NCBI RefSeq assembly: GCF_004571075.1
Contig: NZ_SPQP01000003.1
Coordinates: 62,001-126,000 of the forward strand
Length of the DNA: 64,000 nt
Direction of reading: 5' to 3'
Source: Blastococcus sp. TF02A-35
GTDB lineage: Bacteria > Actinomycetota > Actinomycetes > Mycobacteriales > Geodermatophilaceae
The notes under the pieces were generated by a model. That model searched no databases. It was not told where the DNA came from and saw only the letters and a list, made by a program, of their open reading frames with translations. Position 1 is the first letter of the stretch, and the number at the start of each line of letters is the position of its first letter. The translations under genes were made by a program, and so were the position numbers. This document shows, piece after piece, positions 34,105-39,731 of the stretch.

Positions 34105-34947
34105 GTGCGTCTGCCCTCCGTCCCCGGCCCGTCGGACGTCCTCGGTCTGGTGAGCGGGGTGCGCGACGGCGTGAGCGACGCCCTCGACCTCGTGCCGCGG
34201 GCGTTCGGTCTCCTCGGCCGGATGGAGGAGCTGCTGGACCGCGTGAGCCTGCTGCTGGACCGCGTGGACACCGTGGTCGACCGGGCCGACGGCGCCATCG
34301 ACCGGCTGGAGGACACCCGCGCCCGGGCCGACGAGGCGATCGCCGGCGTCGGGAAGACCCAGGCCAAGGCCGACGAGGCGATCGAGCGCGTGGGCGAGAC
34401 CCAGCAGAAGGCCGACGACGCCATCGAGCGCGTCGGCCAGACCCAGCAGAAGGCCGACGACGCCATCGAGCGCGTCGGCCAGACCCAGCAGAAGGCCGAC
34501 GACGCCATCGAGCGCGTGGGTGAGACCCAGCAGAAGGCCGACGACGCCATCGAGCGGGTCGGTGGCACGTCGGGCCGCGCCGACGCGATCGTCGACCGGG
34601 CCGAGGGGATGCTCGGCCGGGTCGAGCCGATGCTCGGCGACTACGAGCCGGCCCTCACCGCGCTGGCCCCGGTCGTGCGGCGGCTGGCGGCCTCGGTCGA
34701 CCCCACCGAGGTCGACGCGCTCATCAAGCTGATCGACCAGCTGCCCCAGCTGGTGACGCACCTGGACGAGGACATCCTCCCGGTGCTGGAGACCCTGGGG
34801 ACCGTGGGCACCGACGTGCACGACCTGGTCGACACCGTCCAGGACATGCGGCAGATCGTGAAGGGCTTCCCGGGCTCCCGCCTGTTCCGCCGCCGGGGGG
34901 CGGAGGAGATCGCGCAGGACGAGGCCCGGGAAGCCGACGAGGCCTAG
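34105..34947 (+). CDS. coiled-coil protein with 14-residue tandem repeats
   Basis: 280-aa soluble protein. After an N-terminal region (VLGLVSGVRDGVSDALDLVPR), residues about 75-158 are six near-identical 14-residue units of the type ADDAIERVGQTQQK, predicted to form a long helix or coiled coil. A C-terminal helical part follows (ALAPVVRRLAASVDPTEVD) and ends with a charged tail FRRRGAEEIAQDEAREADEA. No enzyme motif is seen. Related actinobacterial proteins are uncharacterised; a structural or membrane-associated role is possible. The encoding 42-bp repeats are almost identical, so copy number may vary between strains. Confidence 0.8.
   Translation: MRLPSVPGPSDVLGLVSGVRDGVSDALDLVPRAFGLLGRMEELLDRVSLLLDRVDTVVDRADGAIDRLEDTRARADEAIAGVGKTQAKADEAIERVGETQQKADDAIERVGQTQQKADDAIERVGQTQQKADDAIERVGETQQKADDAIERVGGTSGRADAIVDRAEGMLGRVEPMLGDYEPALTALAPVVRRLAASVDPTEVDALIKLIDQLPQLVTHLDEDILPVLETLGTVGTDVHDLVDTVQDMRQIVKGFPGSRLFRRRGAEEIAQDEAREADEA
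34327..34578 (+). repeat. six 42-bp tandem repeats within the coiled-coil gene
   Basis: Units start at 34327, 34369, 34411, 34453, 34495 and 34537, each opening with GCCGAC, and a seventh diverged copy starts at 34579. The central three or four units are nearly identical at DNA level. The length is a multiple of three, so copy changes keep the frame. Confidence 0.9.
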
Positions 34948-36624: not shown

Positions 36625-36697
36625 CCAGTACCGGCGCAGACGGCGGACCGACACTCGGACCATGACGACCTCAGCGGCGCGCGCGACCGGAGGAACT

Positions 36698-37426
36698 GTG
36701 TCCGGCAACCAGCCCGGCGGGAGCACCGCCCCCGAGGCGCGCCTGCTCGTCGTGGACGACGAGCCGAACATCCGCGAGCTGCTCTCGGCCAGCCTGCGCT
36801 ACGCCGGGTTCGAGGTCGCCACGGCCGCCGACGGGCAGCAGGCGCTGGAGCTGGCCACCTCGTTCCGCCCCGACCTGCTGGTGCTGGACGTGATGATGCC
36901 GGGCCTGGACGGCTTCGGCGTCGTCCGCCGGCTGCGCGAGTCCGGCCGGCACACCCCGGTGCTGTTCCTGACCGCGCGCGACGCCGCCGAGGACAAGATC
37001 TCCGGCCTCACGCTCGGCGGTGACGACTACGTCACCAAGCCGTTCAGCCTGGACGAGGTCGTCGCCCGGATCCGCGCGGTGCTGCGGCGGACGGCGGGTG
37101 CGCAGAAGGCGTCCGAGGCACCGCGGCTGAGCTTCGCCGACATCGAGCTGGACGAGGAGACGCACGAGGTCATCAAGGCCGGGGAGGTCATCAGCCTCTC
37201 CCCCACCGAGTTCAAGCTGCTGCGCTACCTGATGGCCAACGCCGGGCGGGTGCTGTCCAAGGCGCAGATCCTGGACCACGTGTGGAACTACGACTTCAAC
37301 GGCGAGGCCAACGTCGTCGAGTCCTACATCTCCTACCTGCGCCGCAAGATCGACACGACCGAGCCTCGGCTGCTGCAGACGATCCGCGGCGTGGGCTACA
37401 CGCTCCGCCTGCCGCGGGGGTCCTGA
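36698..37426 (+). CDS. phoP: PhoP-type OmpR-family response regulator
   Basis: 242-aa two-component regulator very close to M. tuberculosis PhoP (Rv0757): PEARLLVVDDEPNIRELL, LTLGGDDYVTKPFSLDEVVARIRAVLRR and ADIELDEETHEVIKAG are near-identical there. Receiver residues are D20/D21, phospho-acceptor D64 and K114. The winged helix shows SLSPTEFKLLRYLMANAGRVLSK and NVVESYISYLRRKIDT. GTG 36698 has GGAGG four nt upstream; ATG 36662 is in frame but has no site. M. tuberculosis PhoP governs acid and envelope responses, not phosphate. The sensor kinase follows through three minicistrons. Confidence 0.9.
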   Translation: MSGNQPGGSTAPEARLLVVDDEPNIRELLSASLRYAGFEVATAADGQQALELATSFRPDLLVLDVMMPGLDGFGVVRRLRESGRHTPVLFLTARDAAEDKISGLTLGGDDYVTKPFSLDEVVARIRAVLRRTAGAQKASEAPRLSFADIELDEETHEVIKAGEVISLSPTEFKLLRYLMANAGRVLSKAQILDHVWNYDFNGEANVVESYISYLRRKIDTTEPRLLQTIRGVGYTLRLPRGS

Positions 37427-37432
37427 CCGACC

Positions 37433-37477
37433 ATGCCCCGCACGCCATGACCCGCACGCCATGACCAGCACGCCATG
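37433..37477 (+). repeat. 14-bp tandem repeats forming three 5-codon minicistrons
   Basis: Between phoP-like and phoR-like genes ATG occurs at 37433, 37447, 37461 and 37475, exactly 14 nt apart, because a 14-bp unit (ATGACCCGCACGCC and variants) is repeated three times. Each of the first three ATGs opens a frame of five codons (MPRTP, MTRTP, MTSTP) whose TGA overlaps the next ATG as ATGA. The fourth ATG starts the kinase. The first ATG is six nt after the regulator's stop. A ribosome could therefore reinitiate four times in series. Confidence 0.75.
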
Positions 37478-38986
37478 ACCCCGCCCCCGGGCCCCCGCGT
37501 GCCCCTGCGGGTCACCCTGGTGGCGCTGCTCGTCGCGCTGGTCTCCGTCGCGCTCGTGGCGACCGGGTTCGCCGCCACCTCGCTGCTGCGCGGCTACCTG
37601 ACCCAGCAGCAGGACACCCAGCTCCGCCTGACCGCCGACCGGCTCTCGGAAATGCGCGTCTCGGTGCTGCGCCAGTGCACCGTCGGGGCGCAGGCCTACC
37701 CGGCCAGCGACTACCTCGCCTGCCTGGCCCCGGGTGGCGAGGAGCTGGTGGTCCTCGCCGGGCCGACGGCCGACGAGCAGCAGCGCCCCGACCTCGGCCG
37801 GCTGGCCGCACGGATCGCCGACCGGGACGACGAGGACCGCCGCGGGCCGGAGGGACCCGAGCCGCCGCACATGTTCACGGTCCCGGCCGAGGACCGCAGC
37901 ACCTCCTGGCGGGTGGCCGCCGTCGAGCTGCCGGAGGGCTACACGGCGCTGCTCGCCCGCGACCTGCGCGGCGACGAGCAGGTCATCGGCCGGCTCGTCG
38001 CGATCGAGGTCGTCGTCGGCCTCGTCGTCCTCACCCTCCTGGGCGTCGCGGGCTACGGCCTGGTGCGCAACAGCCTCCGGCCGCTGGCGCAGGTGGAGGA
38101 CACCGCCCGTGCGATCGCCGCCGGCGACCTGTCCCGGCGGGTGCCCGAGGGCAACGACCGCACCGAGGTGGGCAGGCTGTCGACCGCGCTCAACGGCATG
38201 CTGGCCCGCATCGAGAGCGCGTTCCGCGCCCAGCAGGCGTCCGAGGAGCAGGCCCGCGGCTCCGAGCAGCGGATGCGGCGGTTCGTCGCCGACGCCAGCC
38301 ACGAGCTGCGCACCCCGCTGACGTCGATCCGCGGGTTCGCCGAGCTCTACCGGCAGGGCGCGGTCCGCTCCGAGGAGGACGTCGCCCGGCTGATGCAGCG
38401 GATCGAGGCCGAGGGCGGCCGGATGGGGCTGCTCGTCGAGGACCTCCTGCTGCTGGCCCGCATGGACCAGCAGCGACCCCTGGCCACCAGCCCGGTGGAC
38501 CTGGCGGCCGTCGCCGGCGATGCCGTGCACGACGCGCGCGCCGTCCAGCCCGACCGCCCGATCAGCCTGCACCTCGACGAGTCGCTCACCGACGTCCCCG
38601 TCGTCGTCGGCGACGAGGGCCGCCTGCGCCAGGTGGTCGGCAACCTGGTCACCAACGCGCTGACGCACACCCCGGTCGGCACCCGCGTGACCGTCACCGT
38701 GGCGGAGGCACCCGACGACCCGGACGTGCTCGTGCTCCGGGTCGCCGACGAGGGGCCGGGCATGGCGGAGGCCGACGCCGCCCGGGCGTTCGAGCGGTTC
38801 TACCGGGCCGACGCCTCCCGCACCCGCGCGGCCGGCGGCACCGGGCTGGGGCTGTCCATCGTCGCCTCGCTGGCCGCCGCCCACGGCGGGTCGGCCAGCC
38901 TCGAGACCGCCCCGGGCGCCGGGCTGAGCGTCACGGTGCGGCTGCCCCGCGGCGGCCCCACCGGGGGTGCCGCGACGCCGGCGTGA
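37475..38986 (+). CDS. phoR: PhoR-type sensor histidine kinase
   Basis: 503-aa membrane kinase paired with the PhoP-type regulator. TM1 lies at about residues 12-37 and TM2 at about 172-196, around an extracytoplasmic loop with two Cys (68 and 83) that could form a disulfide. HAMP covers about 197-250. The phosphorylated His is H276 in FVADASHELRTPLTSI. ATP-binding boxes are NLVTNALTHTP (N), VADEGPGM (G1), FERFYRADASRTR (F) and GGTGLGLSIV (G2). ATG 37475 is the last of four ATGs spaced by 14 nt. Signal unknown. Confidence 0.9.
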   Translation: MTPPPGPRVPLRVTLVALLVALVSVALVATGFAATSLLRGYLTQQQDTQLRLTADRLSEMRVSVLRQCTVGAQAYPASDYLACLAPGGEELVVLAGPTADEQQRPDLGRLAARIADRDDEDRRGPEGPEPPHMFTVPAEDRSTSWRVAAVELPEGYTALLARDLRGDEQVIGRLVAIEVVVGLVVLTLLGVAGYGLVRNSLRPLAQVEDTARAIAAGDLSRRVPEGNDRTEVGRLSTALNGMLARIESAFRAQQASEEQARGSEQRMRRFVADASHELRTPLTSIRGFAELYRQGAVRSEEDVARLMQRIEAEGGRMGLLVEDLLLLARMDQQRPLATSPVDLAAVAGDAVHDARAVQPDRPISLHLDESLTDVPVVVGDEGRLRQVVGNLVTNALTHTPVGTRVTVTVAEAPDDPDVLVLRVADEGPGMAEADAARAFERFYRADASRTRAAGGTGLGLSIVASLAAAHGGSASLETAPGAGLSVTVRLPRGGPTGGAATPA

Positions 38987-39008
38987 GCGGGCTTGCGACC
39001 ATCAGGGC

Positions 39009-39731
39009 GTGACCACGAACGACGGCGCCCCCGCGGCCGGAACCCCGTACGACGCCGACCTGATGGCGGCGTCCACCGATCTGGGGGCGGCGCTGCGCGA
39101 GCTCATCGAGGCCTCGGTGGTCAGCACCGTGCCGGCCGCGGAGATCGCCGCCGCCGTCGAGCTCGTGCGCGAGGCCACCGCCCGGGTGGGCGCGTCCCGG
39201 CGCGCCGCCGCCCAGCTGCCCGTCCTCGACGACCCGTCGGTGGGGCGCCGGGTGTTCAACCCGGTCGTCGGCATCGGCAACGCCATCGCGCCGCCGCTGA
39301 TCGTGCGCCGCGAGGAGGGTGGTGTGGTCGCGGAGGTGACCCTCGGCGTCGCCTACGAGGGCCCGCCCAGCTACGTGCACGGCGGCATGAGCGCACTGTT
39401 CATGGACCAGCTGCTGGGCAGCGCGGCCGGTGCCGCCGGCCTGTGGGGCATGACCGCCCACCTGGAGCTTGACTACCGCGGCCCGCTCCCGCTGGAGACG
39501 CCGCTGGTGCTCCGGGCCTGGGTGGAGAGCAGCGAGGGCCGCAAGTCGGTCATCGCCGGCTCGATCGCGCTCGCGGCCACGCCGGAGAAGCCCCTGGTCG
39601 AGGCGCGGGGCATCTTCGTGATGCCGCGGCCGGAGAAGGCCCAGGCCTACTTCGGCACGATCACCGACGCCTCGGGCAACCACGCCCCGCCGCGCCGGCC
39701 GGGCGACGCGACCTCGGTGCAGTGGGCCTGA
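39009..39731 (+). CDS. PaaI-type hotdog thioesterase
   Basis: 240-aa protein. Residues about 90-210 form a hotdog domain with NPVVGIGNAIAPPL, YEGPPSYVHGGMSALFMDQLLG (the HGG motif) and LELDYRGPLPLETPL, matching acyl-CoA thioesterases of the PaaI/THEM4 type. An N-terminal helical arm of about 80 residues precedes it. Probably hydrolyses a medium or aromatic acyl-CoA in the cytoplasm. GTG 39009 lies 22 nt after the kinase stop, and cysQ starts inside its last codons (10-nt overlap). Confidence 0.85.
   Translation: MTTNDGAPAAGTPYDADLMAASTDLGAALRELIEASVVSTVPAAEIAAAVELVREATARVGASRRAAAQLPVLDDPSVGRRVFNPVVGIGNAIAPPLIVRREEGGVVAEVTLGVAYEGPPSYVHGGMSALFMDQLLGSAAGAAGLWGMTAHLELDYRGPLPLETPLVLRAWVESSEGRKSVIAGSIALAATPEKPLVEARGIFVMPRPEKAQAYFGTITDASGNHAPPRRPGDATSVQWA

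Follow-up and report, generated by a model that had tools for sequence, protein, structure and literature searches.

Between the gene of a response regulator and the gene of its sensor kinase, a soil bacterium of the genus Blastococcus carries a 14-bp unit in tandem, by which three minicistrons of five codons each are chained through 4-nt overlaps, the last of them running into the start codon of the kinase. We think it probable that this array is a duplicated start-codon junction which relays ribosomes through the three minicistrons onto the kinase. That the array is a rheostat maintained by selection would seem rather doubtful. The argument draws on the anatomy of the array, a direct overlap of both genes in most relatives, chains that recur at the junction, and a bias of reading frame throughout the family.

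Anatomy of the junction

The features are collected in Table 1. The original prediction had named ATG codons at 37433, 37447, 37461 and 37475 within a 14-bp repeat, three five-codon frames with ATGA overlaps, a first minicistron 6 nt past the regulator stop, and a last ATG that is the kinase start; read from the sequence, all of this is exact. The stop of the regulator is the TGA at 37424-37426. From there the spacing is +6 nt, followed three times by a −4 overlap: the start of minicistron 2 overlaps the stop of minicistron 1 as ATGA, and minicistron 3 shares an ATGA with minicistron 2 on its 5′ side and with the kinase on its 3′ side. Stop and start are thus as close as termination-reinitiation calls for at every step.

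Table 1. Features at the junction between regulator and kinase; positions refer to the window, i.e. the whole analysed stretch of 64,000 nucleotides.
Feature	Position	Strand	Basis
OmpR/PhoB-family response regulator	36698..37426	+	Pfam Response_reg 8.4e-32, Trans_reg_C 4e-29
14-bp tandem repeat, 3.6 copies	37431..37481	+	Tandem Repeats Finder score 88
Minicistron 1, MPRTP-stop, ATG CCC CGC ACG CCA TGA	37433..37450	+	sequence
Minicistron 2, MTRTP-stop, ATG ACC CGC ACG CCA TGA	37447..37464	+	sequence
Minicistron 3, MTSTP-stop, ATG ACC AGC ACG CCA TGA	37461..37478	+	sequence
Sensor histidine kinase, 503 aa (HAMP, HisKA, HATPase_c)	37475..38986	+	Pfam, ORF list

The gap between regulator and kinase measures 48 nt, and all four ATGs lie at most 52 nt from the regulator stop. 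The regulator ends here in TCC TGA, not in ATGA or GTGA; its GTG start is preceded by GGAGGA, and a further in-frame ATG is found at 36662. Open from 37451 on, the frame of the kinase has 37475 as its first ATG, GTG or TTG and a GTG at 37499 as the next. With a receiver and Trans_reg_C domain on one side and HisKA and HATPase_c on the other, all above the Pfam cut-offs, both proteins are ordinary OmpR/PhoB-type partners. The names phoP-like and phoR-like, given to them originally, are loose. The best 25 of 104 NCBIfam models for the regulator and the best 25 of 84 for the kinase remain below their cut-offs, including the PhoB equivalog TIGR02154 (223.3 bits, 296.2 needed) and the PhoR equivalog TIGR02966 (180 bits, 334.2 needed).

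Tandem Repeats Finder reports a period of 14 and 91% matches for the array, whose score is exceeded in the window by one coding repeat only, reported at 34284-34585 in two overlapping rows. A coding repeat of 42 bp at 34326-34562 (5.6 copies, 90% matches) belongs to an ORF with repeats like ADDAIERVGQTQQK. In the genome the sequence CGCACGCCATGACC has two exact matches, both inside the array, and eight one-mismatch matches outside it, each on a different contig. If the 48-nt gap is shuffled with preserved dinucleotides (3000 trials), at least one link occurs in 36% of the trials and at least three links in 0.1%, a figure that overstates the rarity because the three units are copies of one another. 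A scan of both strands of the window for chains of at least two links, with frames of up to 20 codons, returned ten chains; the one at the kinase junction is the only chain made of ATGs throughout and the only one of three links that runs into a long ORF.

At the other end of the kinase (38983-39036) its stop shares bases with a GTG; this GTG opens a frame of nine codons, which ends in the GTGA where a thioesterase-like gene starts. Chains at this junction were seen in 3 out of 34 genomes, the window counted, with no sign of function, and beside it lies a stretch like TTGCGACCATC, a possible promoter that by eye is conserved within the genus. Given this frequency and the adjoining promoter-like stretch, the chain was judged to be due to chance.

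The initiation signals were calculated as duplexes with what we take to be the 16S tail. Minicistrons 2 and 3 and the kinase have no Shine-Dalgarno-like pairing (+0.1 to +0.3 kcal/mol; the mean of 3000 random 20-mers of the window is −3.9 kcal/mol). The GTG of the regulator at 36698 has a Shine-Dalgarno-like duplex of −10.0 kcal/mol. Minicistron 1 possesses a G-rich site of this kind as well (−9.3 kcal/mol, 10 nt away), so that entry into the chain need not be pure reinitiation.

Related junctions and the frame of the arrays

As to the idea that repeat numbers might be compared between relatives, the exact 14-bp repeat was found in the window only, a search of 111 further genomes of Geodermatophilaceae at a tolerance of 3 mismatches giving no match; its architecture is present in Blastococcus sp. 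TF02-8. The kinase was matched at E up to 1e-100 in 100 out of 112 genomes of the family, and 99 junctions were taken, one partial match (G088) being omitted. Regulator and kinase overlap directly by 4 nt at 76 out of 99 junctions (60 GTGA, 16 ATGA). A chain of minicistrons leads through 4-nt overlaps to the kinase at 10 out of 99, the window counted; a single start follows after a gap of 2-28 nt at six, and seven belong to none of these classes. The directly overlapping class also comprises some inserts that continue the reading frame without a stop (e.g. L106, L109), and is on this account not a pure ancestral state. The lineage of the window has presumably lost its direct overlap.

The ten chains have three links in the window, two in B. 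capsensis, and one each in the eight others, i.e. TF02-8 and seven more. By eye, at least four of them (L022, L102, L124, L149) contain inserts that resemble mycobacterial MIRU, and the rest look different. In B. capsensis (L022) the unit measures 80 bp and holds a frame of 27 codons, VSGQGREHRSEERARSGAPRGSEPVTS, with a TGA that forms an overlap with the GTG of the following unit; three unit heads stand 80 bp apart and form two chained minicistrons of 27 codons. The head of this unit, TGAGCGGACAGGGGCGTGAGCATCGCAGCGAGG, has matches in 77 out of 112 genomes (up to 3 mismatches) and is absent from the genome of the window at the same tolerance. A dispersed MIRU-like repeat of about 80 bp is therefore widespread in Geodermatophilaceae, in places in tandem.

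In TF02-8 the corresponding junction has one minicistron of three codons; as in the window, the regulator ends in GTCC TGA and ACGCCATGACC stands at the start of the kinase. This likeness suggests that a minicistron chain may predate the 14-bp array. Trees of regulator and kinase do not resolve the five closest species; the best DNA tree places the window and TF02-8 as sisters with a support of just 40/36, and a common origin of their minicistrons is possible. Shuffled gaps of the ten chain junctions still chain at a frequency of 0.13 to 1.0, which means that, given a fitting frame, chance readily produces single links. Taken by themselves, single links are not supported by this shuffling. In group g8 two genomes (junctions L157 and L168) have a CTGA at the regulator stop through which the kinase frame stays open, and CTG may be the overlapping kinase start there.

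The original prediction had argued that copy number can change without harm to the kinase frame, since each unit ends in ATGA. This argument holds beyond the locus: ATGA arrays throughout the family are in excess at units of 2 mod 3. We searched the 112 genomes for three ATGA heads at fixed spacing (e.g. ATGA-N10-ATGA-N10-ATGA for 14 bp) with units of 10, 11, 13, 14, 16 and 17 bp, that is 1 mod 3 versus 2 mod 3, and used the pattern read backwards, of equal composition, as control. There are 44 matches in 23 out of 112 genomes for 14 bp (control 1), 32 in 21 genomes for 17 bp (control 0), 1 for 13 bp (control 2), and 30 in 11 genomes for 16 bp (control 4), 18 of these from one array. The joint search for 10 and 11 bp gave 29 matches in 23 genomes (24 of 11/11, 1 of 10/10, 4 mixed; control 0).

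For counting arrays, places were taken with their flanks, some of which end at contig edges, and the four mixed places were excluded. This leaves 24 (11 bp), 31 (14 bp) and 25 (17 bp) arrays of 2 mod 3 compared to 1 (10 bp), 1 (13 bp) and 11 (16 bp) of 1 mod 3; the 31 include the window and one place counted on both strands. Among the arrays of 11, 14 and 17 bp, 21 out of 24, 27 out of 31 and 23 out of 25 have every frame ending precisely in the ATGA that follows, compared to 0 out of 13 arrays of 1 mod 3.

A coding-like ORF (60 codons or more and raised third-position G+C) begins at the last ATG in 3 out of 24, 22 out of 31 and 14 out of 25 arrays of 11, 14 and 17 bp, and in 0 out of 1, 0 out of 1 and 1 out of 11 of 10, 13 and 16 bp. 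With units that are near-identical (at least 70%), 2 + 20 + 10 = 32 arrays of 11, 14 and 17 bp lead directly into such an ORF versus 0 of 1 mod 3; if further 4-nt links are allowed, the numbers are 2 + 23 + 15 = 40 versus 5. Closure is exact in 30 of the 32 direct arrays and occurs one codon early, as TGATG, in L195 and L214. The sign test for 32 versus 0 gives 4.7e-10, which overstates the case because some arrays are homologous. As the 11-bp arrays mostly lie off gene starts, support for the rule at such starts comes from the units of 14 and 17 bp. That arrays of 1 mod 3 were not found directly before coding-like ORFs suggests that the repeated ATGs are used. One ATGA array of 16 bp (L253, in G091) has 19 units, of a length that breaks a step-by-step relay.

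Across the phylum a search with spacings of 13 and 14 bp has matches in at least 159 out of 396 genomes. Among the matches listed, 132 typed strings divide into 51 of 14/14, 21 of 13/13 and 60 mixed, and near-identical ones that are not 7-bp periodic number 23 (14 bp) versus 5 (13 bp). The direction is the same and the signal weaker, with a high background of mixed spacing and a count made irrespective of gene starts.

The neighbours of a selection from the 31 arrays of 14 bp, 10 downstream ORFs and 9 upstream frames, match a Pfam family in 9 out of 10 and 6 out of 9 cases. In one case a shikimate dehydrogenase follows a YceG-type gene, in another a glycine-cleavage-T-like protein follows a FUR-type regulator, and the rest include both halves of a carboxyltransferase-like pair, an amidase, a permease and others; in view of this diversity the class of arrays is not about two-component systems. 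At the junction of YceG and shikimate dehydrogenase three 14-bp units lead straight into the gene in one genome (G037), and in another (G028, homologous gene, 76%) two units are followed by a ten-codon frame that ends on the GTGA of the gene. At a different junction, four genomes of group g3, Geodermatophilus among them, carry 17-bp ATGA arrays (G039, G043, G056, G062; L226, L227, L232, L234) with 2, 2, 3 and 2 clean units, and in the last of the four a nine-codon and a six-codon frame come after the units. The downstream proteins are 90-91.5% identical over 200 residues, and the chain of 4-nt overlaps is unbroken in all four. In these two sets of junctions the make-up of the arrays shifts between species while the chain holds. 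This variation was seen at other arrays only, the array of the window having no second genome among the 112.

Proposed relay and alternative explanations

We propose that a tandem duplication of the start-codon junction gave rise to the array and that a unit length of 2 mod 3 was the reason for its retention. A ribosome ending the regulator would restart at the ATG at 37433, translate five codons, terminate on a TGA overlapping with the ATG that follows and restart at this ATG, so that the three minicistrons might hand it on to the ATG of the kinase. Such a relay would replace the direct 4-nt overlap of most corresponding junctions, which is missing here. According to a study in E. coli, a distance of +38 nt lowers reinitiation by 80-90% in two gene pairs and to nothing in a third (PMC10666635), and a review gives the best coupling between −4 and +3 nt with exceptions told (PMC12548453). 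With reinitiation falling with distance in these accounts (PMC10666635, PMC12548453), a relay of −4 steps would be a natural way over 48 nt. Serial termination-reinitiation, as originally put forward, is thus favored indirectly, by internal starts that lack a Shine-Dalgarno-like site, by 76 out of 99 direct overlaps and by the excess at 2 mod 3; the minicistrons are presumably translated, and reinitiation is presumably serial instead of one jump.

The same distance is at issue if a ribosome goes straight to the ATG of the kinase, or to any of the four, with the minicistrons as bystanders. A direct jump is possible because gaps of +25 nt or much more are bridged by coupling in some studies mentioned in the review (PMC12548453), and all four ATGs are near the regulator stop. 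We consider it unlikely, as most of the studies described there show a strong fall with distance (PMC12548453, PMC10666635) and the frame bias fits a use of the intermediate starts. Less likely still is that translation of the regulator or the minicistrons opens a fold over the kinase start and lets new ribosomes load. Such unfolding is a known model of coupling in the same review (PMC12548453), and in the fold predicted for 37400-37520 (−44.9 kcal/mol) the surroundings of the kinase start are paired. Yet this fold is no stronger than its shuffles (z −0.20, 79 out of 200 as good), that of 37427-37500 is weaker than most (z 1.39, 186 out of 200 as good), and the kinase start offers new ribosomes no Shine-Dalgarno-like site. 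RNA structure was therefore rejected as the cause, there being no signal above shuffles around the junction.

Binding sites of OmpR-family regulators are usually direct repeats, and the array might act as DNA, e.g. as such a site, with the frames incidental; the units elsewhere have by eye ATGA and the frame in common but not their sequence, which makes this a very improbable reading. An artefact of assembly or sequencing would be suggested by a draft genome of 87 contigs, and is hardly credible for a short array with units that differ by single bases, given 14-bp ATGA arrays in 23 out of 112 genomes.

The weightiest alternative overlaps with the relay. Slippage may have duplicated a 14-bp stretch that happens to hold the kinase start, the additional ATGs being tolerated since their frames close on the next start, with no gain or tuning of kinase synthesis. 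The repeat is private to one out of 112 genomes, a third of random unit lengths would by simple reasoning fit the frame, and the arrays elsewhere differ in unit sequence and adjoin diverse genes. However, if the ATGs were ignored, length should be irrelevant, which disagrees with the 32 versus 0 direct arrays; ribosomes probably do start at these ATGs, which does not have to be of benefit. We give a neutral by-product of this kind a little less than an even chance.

If ribosomes are relayed, every added unit probably loses some of them, and the number of units should on this ground lower or set the yield of kinase relative to the regulator. Unit number may therefore tune the amount of the second protein, and with it the stoichiometry of the pair in the window. 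A far broader claim is that minisatellites of 2 mod 3 anchored on start codons are widespread and readily mutating translational rheostats of high-GC actinobacteria, in which slippage would be safe for the frame and each unit would contribute a fixed factor through serial reinitiation; we offer it as speculation that we ourselves rather doubt. If it is true, operons gain a mutable dial on protein ratios from frames too short for the usual gene lists. The arrays are natural constructs with several chained reinitiations, in which the efficiency per step and the choice between serial passage and jump become measurable, and the frame bias is comparative evidence for the use of tiny frames at gene junctions.

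Relation to known systems

By its title, the work of Supply et al. 1997 reportedly deals with repetitive units in a two-component operon, a setting in which MIRU and the array of the window are alike. No description of short start-codon arrays or of the frame rule was recognized in the open-licence literature among the matches listed. Intergenic TAACTGA repeats reportedly exist in Beggiatoaceae (PMC4679880) and may be a relative in kind.

According to the review the ORF in a MIRU is coupled to the next gene at −4 nt (PMC12548453), and the units of the window likewise overlap the following start by 4 nt. MIRU measure 40-100 bp, are scattered over the genome and are polymorphic in copy number between isolates at some loci (PMC2734929), and are apparently mobile (PMC12548453). 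The array of the window differs by its 14-bp unit with exact copies in one array only; lacking both the unit size of about 40-100 bp and a dispersed family, it would work like a MIRU and is not one. With ordinary termination-reinitiation coupling it shares start/stop overlaps of 4 nt and short distances (PMC10666635), and departs from it in that three couplings follow one another by way of five-codon frames, for whose peptides no function is evident. Short upstream ORFs and the bicistronic design likewise pass ribosomes from a short ORF to a coupled gene (PMC12548453), whereas the present array occurs in nature, forms a tandem repeat and follows a full-length gene. It is a short-unit variant, and its nearest known precedent is the mycobacterial MIRU.
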